In this document: positions 5,925 to 18,356 of the stretch, piece by piece
Position numbering within the stretch: the first letter of the stretch is position 1
Layout of the letters: every line of letters starts with the position of its first letter
Source of the DNA: Gulosibacter chungangensis
GTDB taxonomy: Bacteria; Actinomycetota; Actinomycetes; Actinomycetales; Microbacteriaceae
DNA length: 64,000 bases
Direction of reading: 5' to 3'
NCBI RefSeq assembly: GCF_008831155.1
Contig: NZ_WBKB01000002.1
Span: forward strand, 124,001 to 188,000
Position numbers and translations under genes: made by a program
The notes under the pieces: model-generated
Told to the model about the DNA's origin: nothing
Databases searched by the model: none
What the model saw: the letters and a program-made list of their open reading frames with translations, nothing else

Positions 5925-7325
5925 ATGACTATTACCCAGCAGCTCCAGCAACAGGTGAGTGCGGCAGCAGGTCTCGACAACTGGCGCGAACTTCCAATTC
6001 GCCAGCAGCCGACCTGGCCCGACCCTGAGGCTGCGAACTATGTGGTCAGTGAGTTGGGTAAGCGCCCGCCGCTCGTATTTGCCGGCGAAGTTGATCGCCT
6101 TCGTGACCGTCTCGCCCAGGCTGCCGCGGGGAACGCCTTCGTACTCCAAGGCGGCGACTGTGCCGAAACGTTCTCGGCTGCAACGGCGGACAAGATTCGC
6201 GGACGGGTATCCACGCTCCTGCAAATGGCGCTGGTGCTTACCTACGGTGCCTCGATGCCCGTCATCAAGATGGGCCGCATGGCGGGTCAGTTCGCCAAAC
6301 CGCGCTCGAAGGACACCGAGACTCGCGACGGCGTAACGCTGCCCGCATACCGCGGCGACATCGTTAACGACTTCGCGTTCACCGAGGAAGCCCGCACGCC
6401 GAATCCCCAACGGATGCTTGACGGCTACCACGTATCGGCATCCACACTGAACCTCATTCGGGCCTTCACGACCGGCGGCTTCGCGGACATGCGCGAGGTG
6501 CACTCTTGGAACCAAGGCTTTGCTTCGAACCCAGCGAACGCTCGGTACGACATGATGGCGCGAGAGATCGATCGCGCTCTCAAGTTCATGGCTGCAACGG
6601 GGGCTGACTTCGAAGCGCTTAAGGAAGTCGAGTTCTACATCGCCCACGAAGGTCTGCTGCTCGAATACGAACGTGCTCTGACGCGAATTGACTCGCGTAC
6701 CCAGCTGCCGTACGACACCTCGGCACACTTCATCTGGATTGGGGAGCGGACGCGGGACCTCGACGAAGCTCACATGGACTTCTTCTCGCGGGTGCGCAAC
6801 CCCATTGGGGTCAAGCTCGGGCCGACGACCGACGTTGACACCATGAAGCGCATCATCGACAAGCTCGACCCTGAGCGCGAGCCGGGTCGACTCACGTTCA
6901 TCACCCGCATGGGGGCCCAGAAGATCGGCGATGTGCTGCCGGGTCTGCTTGAGGCAATCAAGTCGGAGGACGCCACCCCGCTGTGGATCACCGACCCGAT
7001 GCACGGCAATGGTTTTACCACCGAGCGCGGCTTCAAGACTCGTCGATTCGACGATGTGATGGATGAGGTCAAGGGCTTCTTCGCCGCACACAAGGAGGCG
7101 GGTACGCATCCGGGCGGCATCCACATTGAGCTGACCGGTGACGACGTCACCGAGTGCCTCGGCGGCTCGGAAGAGATTGACGAGGCGGGACTCGAGACCC
7201 GCTACGAGTCGCTCTGTGACCCGCGCCTGAATCACATGCAGTCGCTGGAGCTCGCGTTCCTGGTTGCCGAACTTCTCCAAGAGTTCCCGAAGGCCACCAT
7301 CGTGGACGGCCAGGATAACTGGTAG
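5925..7325 (+). CDS. aroG: Class II 3-deoxy-7-phosphoheptulonate (DAHP) synthase
   Basis: Catalyses the first step of the shikimate pathway, joining phosphoenolpyruvate and erythrose 4-phosphate. The sequence is a plant/actinobacterial class II enzyme: it begins with WRELPIRQQPTWPD, has the metal-site cysteine in FVLQGGDCAE near residue 85, KMGRMAGQFAKPRS, and ends with the conserved region LVAELLQE. At 466 residues it is full length. The enzyme is commonly feedback-regulated by aromatic amino acids, sometimes in complex with chorismate mutase. It is convergent with the PknL-type kinase gene, the same arrangement that is known for Rv2178c and pknL in M. tuberculosis. Confidence 0.95.
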   Translation: MTITQQLQQQVSAAAGLDNWRELPIRQQPTWPDPEAANYVVSELGKRPPLVFAGEVDRLRDRLAQAAAGNAFVLQGGDCAETFSAATADKIRGRVSTLLQMALVLTYGASMPVIKMGRMAGQFAKPRSKDTETRDGVTLPAYRGDIVNDFAFTEEARTPNPQRMLDGYHVSASTLNLIRAFTTGGFADMREVHSWNQGFASNPANARYDMMAREIDRALKFMAATGADFEALKEVEFYIAHEGLLLEYERALTRIDSRTQLPYDTSAHFIWIGERTRDLDEAHMDFFSRVRNPIGVKLGPTTDVDTMKRIIDKLDPEREPGRLTFITRMGAQKIGDVLPGLLEAIKSEDATPLWITDPMHGNGFTTERGFKTRRFDDVMDEVKGFFAAHKEAGTHPGGIHIELTGDDVTECLGGSEEIDEAGLETRYESLCDPRLNHMQSLELAFLVAELLQEFPKATIVDGQDNW

Positions 7326-14028: not shown

Positions 14029-15810
14029 TTGGCCAAGCCTCGCAAAGCCAACGTGCGGGCCATCCTTCCTATGTTTGCGGTGGCCATTGTGGTTGTCGTG
14101 TTTATCGGTCGGTTGGTGAGCCTGCAGGTCCTCGACGCGGCCGCGATCAACTCGGAAGCTGACGGCCGCCGGGGCGTGGTGCAGACGCTCTGGGGGACTC
14201 GCGGGTCCATCGTTGACACCAACGGTGCGGTCCTGGCCTCCTCAGTGGATCGCTTTGACATCACCTTTGCGCCAGTGAACATGAGCGACTACCCGGTGAT
14301 CGATCCCGAAACCGACCAGGAAGTCACCGTCACGGTGGAAGAGTCACTGCAAAAAATTGCGGAAATCACCGATCAAGATCCGGCCGAGCTGCAGACCAGT
14401 GTGGATGCGATTATCGCCGGCGACCCGGAGTCACAGTTCGGCTATTTGGCCAGAATGGTGACGCTGGAGGAATTTCAGCAGGTTCGCGAGCTCCGCATCC
14501 CGTGGGTGTACGACGAACGGCACCCCGAGCGGGTGTATCCCAACGGGGCCGTTGGTGGAAGCATCACGGGGTTTCTTGGGAGCGATGGAACGCCGCTGGC
14601 GGGCTTGGAGCTCCAATATGACCAATGCTTGGCGGGCGCGAATGGTCAGGAAACCTATATTCGCTCGCGAGACAACGTGGCAATTCCAGGGTCGATCGTG
14701 ACGCTCACGGAACCGACCAACGGCGGTACTCTGCAGACCACGCTCGATCTCGATACCGATTACATGATGCGGCAAATCCTCGCGGAGAACGTCGAGGCGA
14801 TGGAAGCGAAATACGGCACCATCACCGTGGTCGAGGTTGAGACAGGCGAAATTCTCTCGGCAGCCGAGTACCCAGCGGTAGACCCCAACGATCCCTCGTC
14901 GGTGGATGCGGAGTATCGCGGCTCGCTCACCTTCACGGCGCCCTATGAGCCAGGCTCGATTATGAAGCCAATCACGGCGGCGTACACGTATGACAAAGGT
15001 GCCATCGACCCATTCGAGACCATCACGGTTCCGGATACCTGGCCGGGAAGCGAAGCGAACTTCAGTGACGACTCGCCTCATGATCCCGAAGAAATGAACC
15101 TCAACGGGGTCATGGCGCAATCATCCAACGTCGGAATCGTGCTGTACGGACAGCGGGTTGATGCGGCCAGCCGATACCAATATCTGCTCGACTTCGGTTT
15201 TGCGAATCAAACCGATGTGGGATTCATCGGTGAAGAGTCCGGCATCCTCTACGAGCCTGAGCAGTGGGACTCACACACCGCGCTGAGCATCATGTTTGGC
15301 CAGGGTATTTCGGTCACGGCGGCGCAGATGGCCAGTGCCTATCAAACGATTGCCAACGGTGGCACTTCGGAGTCACTCAAGCTCGTCAAGGGGTGCCTGC
15401 AGGAAGACGGAGAACTCACCGATGTTCCCGAGAGTTCTTCTAACCAGGTCATCTCTGCGGATGCCGCAGCGCTCACCCTGCAGGCCCTCGAGGCGACCGC
15501 CCAAGACAGCTGGCTCGCCGACGAGGTGGCGATTCCCGGGTATCGCGTGGGGATGAAAACGGGTACCGCTCAGGTGGTCAATCCGGAGACCGGTTTATAT
15601 GAAGAAAACAGCTACATCACCTCGATGGCGGGGGTCGCACCCATCGACGATCCGAAGTACGTCGTGATCGTCACGCTCGCCAACCCGGTTAAGATCACTA
15701 CTAGTGCTGCAACGGCCTCAGCCTGGCAACAGGCGATGTCGTACATGCTGACCTCGAATGATATTGCGCCCTCGCCAACACCATGGCCGCAGATCACGAT
15801 AGAACCGTAA
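14029..15810 (+). CDS. ftsI: Peptidoglycan D,D-transpeptidase FtsI (PBP3 class)
   Basis: Class B penicillin-binding protein that crosslinks septal peptidoglycan. After a short basic N-terminus there is one transmembrane helix (residues 12-30), a pedestal domain, and the transpeptidase domain with all three active-site motifs: SxxK as SIMK (Ser310, Lys313), SSN at 365-367 and KTGTAQ at 510. It starts with TTG at 14029, which has GAAGGG about 8 nt upstream. The N-terminal positively charged tail and 593-residue length are typical for actinobacteria. It follows ftsL and is followed 15 bp later by the Mur-ligase-like gene. Confidence 0.93.
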   Translation: MAKPRKANVRAILPMFAVAIVVVVFIGRLVSLQVLDAAAINSEADGRRGVVQTLWGTRGSIVDTNGAVLASSVDRFDITFAPVNMSDYPVIDPETDQEVTVTVEESLQKIAEITDQDPAELQTSVDAIIAGDPESQFGYLARMVTLEEFQQVRELRIPWVYDERHPERVYPNGAVGGSITGFLGSDGTPLAGLELQYDQCLAGANGQETYIRSRDNVAIPGSIVTLTEPTNGGTLQTTLDLDTDYMMRQILAENVEAMEAKYGTITVVEVETGEILSAAEYPAVDPNDPSSVDAEYRGSLTFTAPYEPGSIMKPITAAYTYDKGAIDPFETITVPDTWPGSEANFSDDSPHDPEEMNLNGVMAQSSNVGIVLYGQRVDAASRYQYLLDFGFANQTDVGFIGEESGILYEPEQWDSHTALSIMFGQGISVTAAQMASAYQTIANGGTSESLKLVKGCLQEDGELTDVPESSSNQVISADAAALTLQALEATAQDSWLADEVAIPGYRVGMKTGTAQVVNPETGLYEENSYITSMAGVAPIDDPKYVVIVTLANPVKITTSAATASAWQQAMSYMLTSNDIAPSPTPWPQITIEP

Positions 15811-15825
15811 CTCACGCAGGAAATC

Positions 15826-16941
15826 ATGCCCGAACCCAGTCTTCGCCCACACCATCCCAGGGCGCGCATCCTCTCCGAGATGTGCGCCGAGTTTGGCTTA
15901 GAGCCACACACCGATGACTTTGATACCGAACAGATCGAAGTCACGGGAGTGGTGAGCGACGCGGATCGGGTTGAATCCGGTGACATGTTCGTGGCGGACA
16001 TTGCCGCCGGACACAATCCCACCTCGCAGTTTGAGTTGGCGGTCGAACGCGGCGCCTCGAGCATCATGACTAATGCGCTTGGCGCCGAGCACGTGCAAGG
16101 AGACACAGTCCCCGTGCTGGTTGTTGAAGATCCGCGACTCGCACTCGGCCACATTGCGCGTTGGGTGTATCGAACTGATCCTGACTCGCCAAAACTCTTG
16201 GGCGTGACCGGTTCCCGAGGGAAAACCTCCGTGGTGTATCTCATCGACTACCTCCTGCAGACGCTGGGGGTCAAAACCGGAATGTCCACCAACCAGGAAC
16301 GTCATGTTGGTGACGAACGTCTCGATGCCCGGGGCGTAGCTGCGGATGCTGATGAGCTCCACGCGATGCTCGCGCGGATGCATGAAGTCGGTGTGCATGT
16401 AGCCAGCGCGGAGCTTTCGACTCAGGCTGTCATTAGGCATAACTTTGCTGGCCTTTATTTTGACGTCGCCGGCTTTTTGAATTTTGAAGCGACAGCGGAA
16501 CGGCCGGGAAGCCCTGATTCCAGCTTCGAAGCCCTCGTGGAGTTATTTTCGCCGGAACAGACCCGTCGCGGTGTGATCAACATCGACACCGAAGACGGTC
16601 AGCGATTGCTGGAAGAGACTCGCGTGCCAGTCAGCACAATTTCTATTCGAGAAGATGCTGGGGCAGACTGGTGGGTCTGCGCAGAACCGACCGAAACCGG
16701 CACACAGTTTTCAATGTACGGTCCCGATGACCGAGAACTCCACACGTGGACATCGCAAGAGGACCCCCACAGCGCCATCAACGCCGCAATGGCAATTCTG
16801 ATGATCGATGGTGCCGGGTGGGATGTGGAACAGATGCAGGATGCGCTTGGTCGCGTGGACGGGATCCAGCTGGAGCCGCGAAGCCGCGAAACATTAGACG
16901 CAGAAGCACGGGGCAGAATGAGACAGGACGACAACTTATGA
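15826..16941 (+). CDS. Truncated, catalytically degenerate MurE-like protein
   Basis: Occupies the murE position (ftsI-X-murF) and aligns by eye with MurE through domain 1 and the central ATP-binding domain, but it is 371 residues against about 500 and has no C-terminal ligase domain, so the DNPR-type amino-acid recognition region is absent. Central-domain residues are also changed: the P-loop is GSRGKTS (129-135) instead of GTNGKTT, the EVSSHAL motif is ELSTQAV with the His replaced by Gln200, the NLxxDHLD segment reads NFEATAER (219-226), and the carbamylated lysine site reads ALVELF (236 onward). It is still an intact frame with a start 16 bp after ftsI and an ATGA overlap with murF, so it is probably expressed. 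I infer a pseudoenzyme or regulatory/scaffold role; UDP-MurNAc tripeptide synthesis must be done by another MurE. Confidence 0.8.
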   Translation: MPEPSLRPHHPRARILSEMCAEFGLEPHTDDFDTEQIEVTGVVSDADRVESGDMFVADIAAGHNPTSQFELAVERGASSIMTNALGAEHVQGDTVPVLVVEDPRLALGHIARWVYRTDPDSPKLLGVTGSRGKTSVVYLIDYLLQTLGVKTGMSTNQERHVGDERLDARGVAADADELHAMLARMHEVGVHVASAELSTQAVIRHNFAGLYFDVAGFLNFEATAERPGSPDSSFEALVELFSPEQTRRGVINIDTEDGQRLLEETRVPVSTISIREDAGADWWVCAEPTETGTQFSMYGPDDRELHTWTSQEDPHSAINAAMAILMIDGAGWDVEQMQDALGRVDGIQLEPRSRETLDAEARGRMRQDDNL

Positions 16942-18356
16942 TTCCGATGACGCTACGCGAGATCGCCGAGCGGATTGACGGCAGACTCCTCCTGGCTGAA
17001 GGCACCGGCGAGGGCGACATTATTCGTGGTCTCAGCGACACCGACTCCCGCAAGATCGGGACGGGCGATATTTTCTTTGCCAAGCCGGGGGAAGTGACCG
17101 ACGGCCATCTCTATGCGCCCAAAGCCGTCGAAAACGGCGCCGCGCTCGCCGTGGTAGAGCGAGAACTTGAGTTGGGCATCCCACAAATCGTGGTTGACGA
17201 TGTCGTCGCTGCCTTGGGCCAGCTCGCGACCGAAGTCGTGGAACGAGTCCGGCAACACGGCCGGATGCGGGTAGTGGCGGTCACAGGATCAAACGGCAAG
17301 ACGACCACAAAGAACCTTCTGAAAGCAATATTTGAGCGGCACGGCAATGTCGTAGCTCCCATCGCATCCTTCAATAACGAAGTTGGTGCTCCGACCACTT
17401 TCCTGCAGGTCACTGAAGAGACCGACACGCTGATTGCCGAAATGGGCGCCAGCAAAGTCGGTGAAATTCGCTACCTCACGAATATGGCACGTCCGGACAT
17501 TGGCATTGTGCTGATGGTCGGACTCGCTCATGCGGGCGAATTCGGTGGCATCGAGATGATCGAGAAAGCCAAAGCCGAAATGGTCGAAGCTCTCGGCGAG
17601 GGTGGCGTTGCGGTGCTCAACGCGGATGACCCACGTGTTGTGAAGATGGCGCAGAAGGCTCCAGGCGAAGTGGTCTGGTTCGGACGTGGCGAAAGCGCGC
17701 AGATCAGAGCCACCGACGTTGAAGTCTCGCAGCAGGGGACCCGCTTCGTGTTGCACTCACCAAATCACGATCCAGTGTCGGTGGAATTCTCGGTGATCGG
17801 GGAACACCACGTGATGAACGCATTGGCCGCCACTGCCGCCGCACACGCTGCGGGCATCCCAATCACCGATGTGGTGGAGGTGCTGACCACGGTCACTCGC
17901 GCCGAGCGCTGGCGCATGGAGGTGCTTACGCGCGAGCCAATCACGGTGATTAATGACGCGTACAACGCCAACCCAAACTCGATGGCGGCTGCGTTGCGCA
18001 CGCTGGCACAGATCGCCAACCCCGGTCAGCGCACGGTCGCGGTGCTCGGGCAGATGTCGGAACTTGGCGATCAATCTGTGTTTGAACACGACAAACTTGG
18101 CGAATTGGCGGTGCGCCTGGGAGTTTCTCAAACCGTTGTAATCGGCCGTGACGCCCGGCCGCTGTACCTCGCCGCCGTGGCGCAGGGCAGCTGGGATAAT
18201 GAGGCGACCTTTGCCGAGGACGCAGATGAAGCGTTCGATTTTCTGCGCGGATATTTGCAGCCCGGTGACCTCGTACTCGTCAAGTCTTCCAATTCGGCTG
18301 GCTTGCGTATGCTTGGTGACCGACTCGGCGACTATGTGAAGGGAACCCTCGCTTGA
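16938..18356 (+). CDS. murF: UDP-N-acetylmuramoyl-tripeptide-D-alanyl-D-alanine ligase
   Basis: Adds D-Ala-D-Ala to the UDP-MurNAc-tripeptide in the cytoplasm. Three Mur domains are present: an N-terminal domain with [17 protein letters not shown], the ATP site [10 protein letters not shown] near residue 120 with SFNNEVGAP and [11 protein letters not shown], and the C-terminal domain with [12 protein letters not shown]. The 472-residue length is normal, in contrast to the truncated gene just upstream. Its ATG overlaps the preceding TGA, so its translation depends on that reading frame being kept open. An in-frame extension upstream to 16746 is only a shadow inside the previous gene. Confidence 0.95.

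Follow-up and report, generated by a model that had tools for sequence, protein, structure and literature searches.

What kind of protein occupies the murE slot of the dcw cluster in Gulosibacter chungangensis? In the window, by which we mean the whole 64,000-nucleotide stretch of DNA analysed here, an earlier note had described a 371-residue MurE-like protein without a C-terminal domain, encoded between ftsI and murF, and had proposed that it is inactive but maintained, with the active MurE encoded elsewhere. The gene arrangement is as it was described: the frame is intact, begins 15 bp after ftsI and overlaps murF by 4 bp (ATGA). The features discussed below are collected in Table 1.

Table 1. 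Features of the murE slot in the window and of related genes at other loci.
Feature	Location	Strand	Remark
ftsI	14029..15810	+	upstream neighbour
Ribosome-binding site CAGGAA	15817..15822	+	upstream of slot gene
Putative MurE-derived pseudoenzyme, 371 aa	15826..16941	+	murE slot of dcw cluster
N-terminal domain, residues 1-123	15826..16194	+	
Central Mur ligase domain, residues 124-350	16195..16875	+	predicted intact fold
Altered P-loop GSRGKTS, residues 129-135	16210..16230	+	
NFEATAER, residues 219-226	16480..16503	+	NLxxDHLD is lost here
Codon of Leu237	16534..16536	+	lysine of YFxAKxxLF in motif-complete relatives
Tail, residues 351-371	16876..16938	+	low prediction confidence; ligase C-domain would start here
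murF	16938..18356	+	full length, three Mur domains (Pfam)
copy2 of window genome	L012:6902-8467		
copy3, 504 aa, full-length MurE-like	L013:6835-8349 (C18)		beside ClpC-like gene
g6 degenerate open frames	L137:5373-6389, L141:1465-2688, L142:970-2079		between ftsI and murF
g66 MurF piece	L104 ~6100-6754, also L145, L146	reverse (L104)	

We compared the slot protein with the features of a functional MurE ligase. Mur_ligase_M was the only domain found by Pfam, and the best NCBIfam matches were MurE models, far under their cut-offs (for TIGR01085, 105 bits vs a cut-off of 257). The P-loop Asn, the DHLD segment and the carbamate lysine of MurE all have catalytic roles. In the slot protein the P-loop, GTNGKT(T/S) in ligases, retains GKT and has lost the Asn; the DHLD segment and the lysine are replaced, and the C-terminal domain with its HTP, (D)NPR and GHE motifs is absent. 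These losses, listed in the earlier note, were all confirmed, and all four of them do indicate inactivity: as a MurE, the protein is very probably dead. Gln200, which had also been read as a sign of inactivity, is not one, since Gln stands at this position (EVSAQ) in 33 of 36 motif-complete relatives. The predicted fold (mean pLDDT 90.9, from an input alignment rich in motif-complete MurEs) was best matched in the PDB by M. tuberculosis MurE, with a TM of 0.83, and PAP11 was among the best sequence and fold matches. The catalytic residues are lost and, according to this model, the fold is kept, as in a pseudoenzyme.

The window genome (3.24 Mb in 21 contigs, 99.7% complete) encodes two further full-length MurE-like proteins, both above the TIGR01085 cut-off; the earlier note had expected the active MurE to lie elsewhere. 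One of them, copy2, is about 521 aa long and lies beside nrdI-nrdE on another contig than the slot gene; the other is copy3 (the neighbour names, nrdI-nrdE and ClpC-like, were read from sequence). Copy3 has LTEDDLK where MurE has DNPR, is matched in 5 of 11 Gulosibacter genomes and may use another substrate. Relatives of the window genome were found with an alignment query of contigs, an earlier single-protein query having given no matches; they are G. macacae, G. sediminis, G. hominis, Gulosibacter sp. 10, the former Zimmermannella bifida, Z. faecalis and one MAG. The slot is occupied in 11 of 11 Gulosibacter genomes, at the same place in each. In nine the slot MurE is broken, that is, without the catalytic residues, and all nine encode full-length copy2. 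The other two, G001 and G010, have a motif-complete slot MurE and no copy2; no second MurE match was found in them at E 1e-5, and their nrdI-nrdE/aldo-keto reductase/DUF4349 place lacks copy2 and is otherwise the same. As far as genome content goes, this distribution is one of reciprocal loss. Copy2 adjoins nrdI-nrdE in all seven genomes checked (seven of the nine with copy2; not G006 and G008); near it, no aldo-keto reductase was found in G004 and no DUF4349 or PRC gene in G003. All ten sister-genus genomes have a slot gene that is motif-complete as far as its sequence goes, one of these genes being contig-cut; copy2 is present in seven, at another place in the two checked, and both copies are motif-complete in 7 of 10. 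Near the C-terminus, GGHGHR is found in 8 of 9 Gulosibacter and 7 of 7 sister-genus copy2 proteins, at a position usually occupied by GPGHE or GPGHQ in intact slot MurEs, and perhaps reflects a different third-residue specificity. The genus contains DAB or D-ornithine, according to PMC6113628.

The broken copies take several forms. Those of G000, G005, G009, G004 and G003 encode 361-371 aa, whereas the 476-487-aa products of G002, G006 and G007 still have a degenerate C-domain; the G008 gene is short and split over two contigs, with its length and part of the DHLD stretch unsequenced. There are no stops in the eight complete copies (the ninth, G008, is interrupted by the contig gap), and of these eight, each on one contig, five overlap or abut murF and three have 52-56 bp before it. 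Of the 16 slot starts compared, intact or broken, 15 are preceded by the sequence CAGGAA, the exception being G003; it is thus retained in 8 of 9 broken copies. The P-loop Asn is gone in all nine, GKT being retained in eight. The HGAxF loop and the LTTPE motif have a role in substrate binding; they are kept or nearly kept in G002, G004, G006, G007 and G008, and both are lost in the window's clade (G000, G005 and G009) and in G003. The G003 copy (G. hominis) is far decayed, having lost the P-loop and CAGGAA and evolving at 4.2 times the core rate.

The seven-gene species tree joins G001/G010 to G002/G006/G007 with support 100, and the tree of the slot gene, built with 6 of the 24 rows from other genera and no copy3, groups them likewise with support 98/94; alignment A1 holds the N part only of G008. 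G001/G010 being grouped with G002/G006/G007, the broken copies are not one clade. The two trees disagree elsewhere, as the gene tree unites G000/G005/G009 with G003/G004/G008 (98/97) and the species tree does not (87). There are two losses of catalysis on the gene tree and three on the species tree, where the relevant branch has support 87; an AU test against a single clade of broken copies gave p 0.042, marginal by itself. These results imply that catalysis was probably lost at least twice. That the intact gene reached G001/G010 only later is unlikely, given that both trees place it with G002/G006/G007, although the AU test is marginal. Trees and synteny together show the slot gene, as far as descent can be read from sequence, to be the dcw murE of its lineage.

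We then asked how the broken copies evolve. The reference set for conservation comprised 35 motif-complete MurEs belonging to the slot lineage: 2 from Gulosibacter, 9 from the sister genus and 24 from other genera. Location in the dcw cluster was checked for nine of them, and the contig-cut S161 was excluded. In this set, 87 columns of the N-terminal and central (N+M) domains are invariant (at least 97%). In the broken copies, 40 of these columns are kept in at least eight of nine and 15 in at most three; seven have been lost from every broken copy, namely the P-loop Asn, H229, H231, D233, D234, Y241 and the lysine (a stretch partly unsequenced in G008). For G002/G006/G007, 75% of the invariant cells are kept in N+M, compared with 39% in the C-domain.

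The pairs used for dN/dS were the closest within clades, picked by the analyst. Since the deletion at the DHLD site is common to G002/G006/G007 and the truncation to G000/G005/G009, the compared pairs diverged after the loss. Maximum likelihood (ML) estimates for N+M were 0.038 (G006-G007), 0.081 (G002-G007) and 0.032 (G000-G005), similar to those for murF (0.022, 0.048 and 0.032, respectively) and for N+M of copy2 (0.031 and 0.087 in the first two pairs). These codon estimates cover two of three clades, with synonymous sites near saturation in G000-G005; G000-G009, G005-G009 and copy2 N+M of G000-G005 were saturated, without a usable ML estimate. The C-domain gave 0.15 in both G006-G007 and G002-G007, which is below neutral too (2dlnL 40 and 23). 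By NG86, dN/dS for N, M and C was 0.075, 0.103 and 0.342 in G006-G007, and 0.262, 0.255 and 0.771 in G002-G007. A permutation test found the excess of C over N+M significant (p 0.0005) in each of the two broken pairs tested, G007 being in both; no C-domain excess was seen in two copy2 pairs or in the intact slot pair. Relative to the seven-gene core, N+M evolved 2.1-2.4 times as fast (4.2 times in G003-G004) and C 7-8.4 times, compared with 0.57-0.91 times for intact slots; broken copies evolve about three times faster than intact ones. These estimates show that, after the loss of catalysis, N+M appear to have stayed under protein-level selection close to that on working Mur ligases, and that the C-domain is apparently relaxed where present; elsewhere it is absent. 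By the usual marks, namely stops, frameshifts and neutral dN/dS, the broken copies would not be classed as pseudogenes, their dN/dS being far under 1; common descent and selection on the protein after catalysis was lost argue for a MurE-derived pseudoenzyme. The proposal of an inactive but maintained protein, with full-length MurEs elsewhere, thus holds apart from the Gln200 argument; the comparison with relatives suggested in the earlier note bore out open frames and constrained N-terminal and central domains, the C-domain being relaxed where present.

The best explanation of these observations as a whole, with a probability of roughly 0.55, is that copy2 took over catalysis and the slot protein was kept for a non-catalytic job. 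The Gulosibacter ancestor would have had two working MurEs, the dcw copy and copy2; in most lineages copy2 would have become the ligase and the dcw copy would have lost catalysis, its N-terminal and central domains retaining a task other than catalysis in the cytoplasmic part of the lipid II pathway. Going by sequence, this role is most likely structural or regulatory, and the slot protein would most likely be a docking or adaptor subunit that holds Mur enzymes together; our guess for its partner is a product of the same operon (MurF, MurG or FtsI) or copy2. We infer the step from constraint to docking as follows: with polarity and ligand sensing weakened (see below), protein contact remains, and the RPHHP-R-LSE segment of the N-terminal domain is conserved across the slot lineage and not in copy2. 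Several observations count against this explanation. The slot is empty in nine of ten other Microbacteriaceae genomes read (see below), the G003 copy is far decayed, copy2 of the sister genus lies at another place in the genomes checked, and broken copies evolve faster than intact ones, with a C-domain that is itself still below neutral. The whole slot gene has a dN/dS two to three times that of most neighbours (0.150 vs 0.04-0.06 in G006-G007, where ftsL has 0.159; 0.375 vs 0.15-0.26 in G002-G007, where ftsL has 0.45), and remnants in another genus, g6, have lost the N-domain instead, opposite to Gulosibacter. More tentatively, a dcw-encoded MurE could have an ancestral second, non-catalytic role in Mur enzyme assembly, which Gulosibacter separated from catalysis, leaving the scaffold domains in place; other dcw stumps, of murE in g6 and of murF in g66 (both described below), may be further cases.

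A useless gene would also keep an open frame if stops and frameshifts in it cut expression of the essential murF-mraY-murD-ftsW, through translation or transcription, in which case missense changes and in-frame deletions alone would survive. Every frame seen is indeed open, most broken copies touch murF, and the g6 remnants and the relaxed C-domain fit. However, such a filter predicts a dN/dS near 1 gene-wide, and N+M stand at 0.03-0.08 (ML) and 0.075-0.31 (NG86); since the slot gene's dS resembles that of its neighbours, these low values mean that the constraint acts on the protein. We therefore regard this explanation as unlikely. Coupling to murF as the only reason for keeping the gene, which the earlier note had entertained, is insufficient in Gulosibacter, given a constraint on N+M near that on motif-complete enzymes, and is weakened also by the three of eight broken copies that are spaced from murF. 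The least probable of the readings considered here is slow decay, in which redundant genes are gradually being lost, as in the g6 series that ends in an empty slot. The g6 remnants (in three of five genomes, with G015 empty) and the decayed look of G003 agree with it, but the shared indel and the shared truncation place the loss before the compared splits, and in G000-G005 N+M are still constrained with synonymous sites near saturation.

Two further readings give the slot protein a more specific task. It could form a heteromer with copy2, stabilising or regulating the full-length MurE; pseudoenzyme-enzyme pairs are known for other enzymes, and all nine genomes with a broken slot also carry copy2. 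The sister genus, however, retains both copies motif-complete in most of its genomes, and in the window genome copy2 is encoded on a separate contig; we give this pairing somewhat less weight than the polarity filter. Ligand sensing, for which the earlier note had pointed to UDP-MurNAc-dipeptide, is a shade less probable again. It agrees with the retention of GKT in eight broken copies and of HGAxF and LTTPE, at least nearly, in five, but the loss of both motifs from the window's clade and G003 weakens it, as N+M of G000-G005 are equally constrained.

The preferred reading, a protein kept for a non-catalytic job, has partial parallels in known systems. With MurE itself (TIGR01085; PDB 2WTZ, 1E8C) the slot protein shares gene position, descent and the fold of the N-terminal and central domains, and differs in falling below the family cut-off without the C-domain, DHLD, carbamate lysine or P-loop Asn. 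PAP11 is a MurE descendant that became a subunit of another machine, the plant plastid RNA polymerase, of which it is a peripheral component, and the MurE of Arabidopsis is described as having diverged in function from the bacterial enzyme (both from PMC12681378); unlike the slot protein, PAP11 is a plant plastid protein, is much longer and contacts the polymerase partly via its C-terminal domain. PMC6420597 describes association of MurE-MurF and MurG in Bordetella, where MurE and MurF form one assembly that binds MurG; this fusion (PDB 8F5D) is bifunctional and active, whereas the slot protein is separate and lacks the catalytic residues. MurT, of the MurT-GatD pair, is related to the Mur ligases and has another task in making peptidoglycan (PMC6736417), but it is catalytic and paired with GatD, and no MurT model is among the NCBIfam matches listed for the slot protein. 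In the open-licence literature we found no title on a bacterial MurE pseudoenzyme or on the Gulosibacter murE slot. The wider question is whether Mur ligases associate physically and, if they do, which tasks other than catalysis they have in such a complex. Separation-of-function mutants seem to have arisen here by evolution, with a broken but selected MurE and a full-length copy elsewhere, and as close relatives carry the opposite arrangement, a structural role of MurE is directly testable. A further consequence is that finding murE in a dcw cluster does not by itself identify the active ligase.

Across the Microbacteriaceae sampled, 140 of 149 genomes match the window protein at E 1e-15, and among the matches listed only the window's frame and that of G004 are shorter than 470 aa. 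We read the slot in ten genomes, namely the nine without a match and G015, which has a weak one. In nine of the ten (L130-L136, L138, L139) ftsI is directly followed by murF, so that any role of the slot protein is not general; a MurE-like gene lies outside the dcw cluster in all ten. In the tenth, G088, ftsI and murF are separated by an open frame of 339 aa, and similar ones occur in G140 and G164; these are the remnants of g6, the genus that also contains G015 and G165, the latter without a match. Their position and a weak similarity (19-32 bits to MurE queries) faintly suggest descent from murE; in NCBIfam the G088 frame gave faint MurF and MurC matches only. Mur ligase genes outside dcw are thus not rare in this family, and the slot can be cleared, with a piece sometimes retained.

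In both genomes examined of genus g66, the place of murF is taken by an open frame of about 220 aa that corresponds to a C-terminal piece of MurF (dN/dS 0.15). A longer MurF-like match is found elsewhere in the genome, which makes this a possible murF parallel to the broken slot MurE. In G023 (L128) the dcw order is rearranged to ftsI, murF, mraY, MurE-like, murD.
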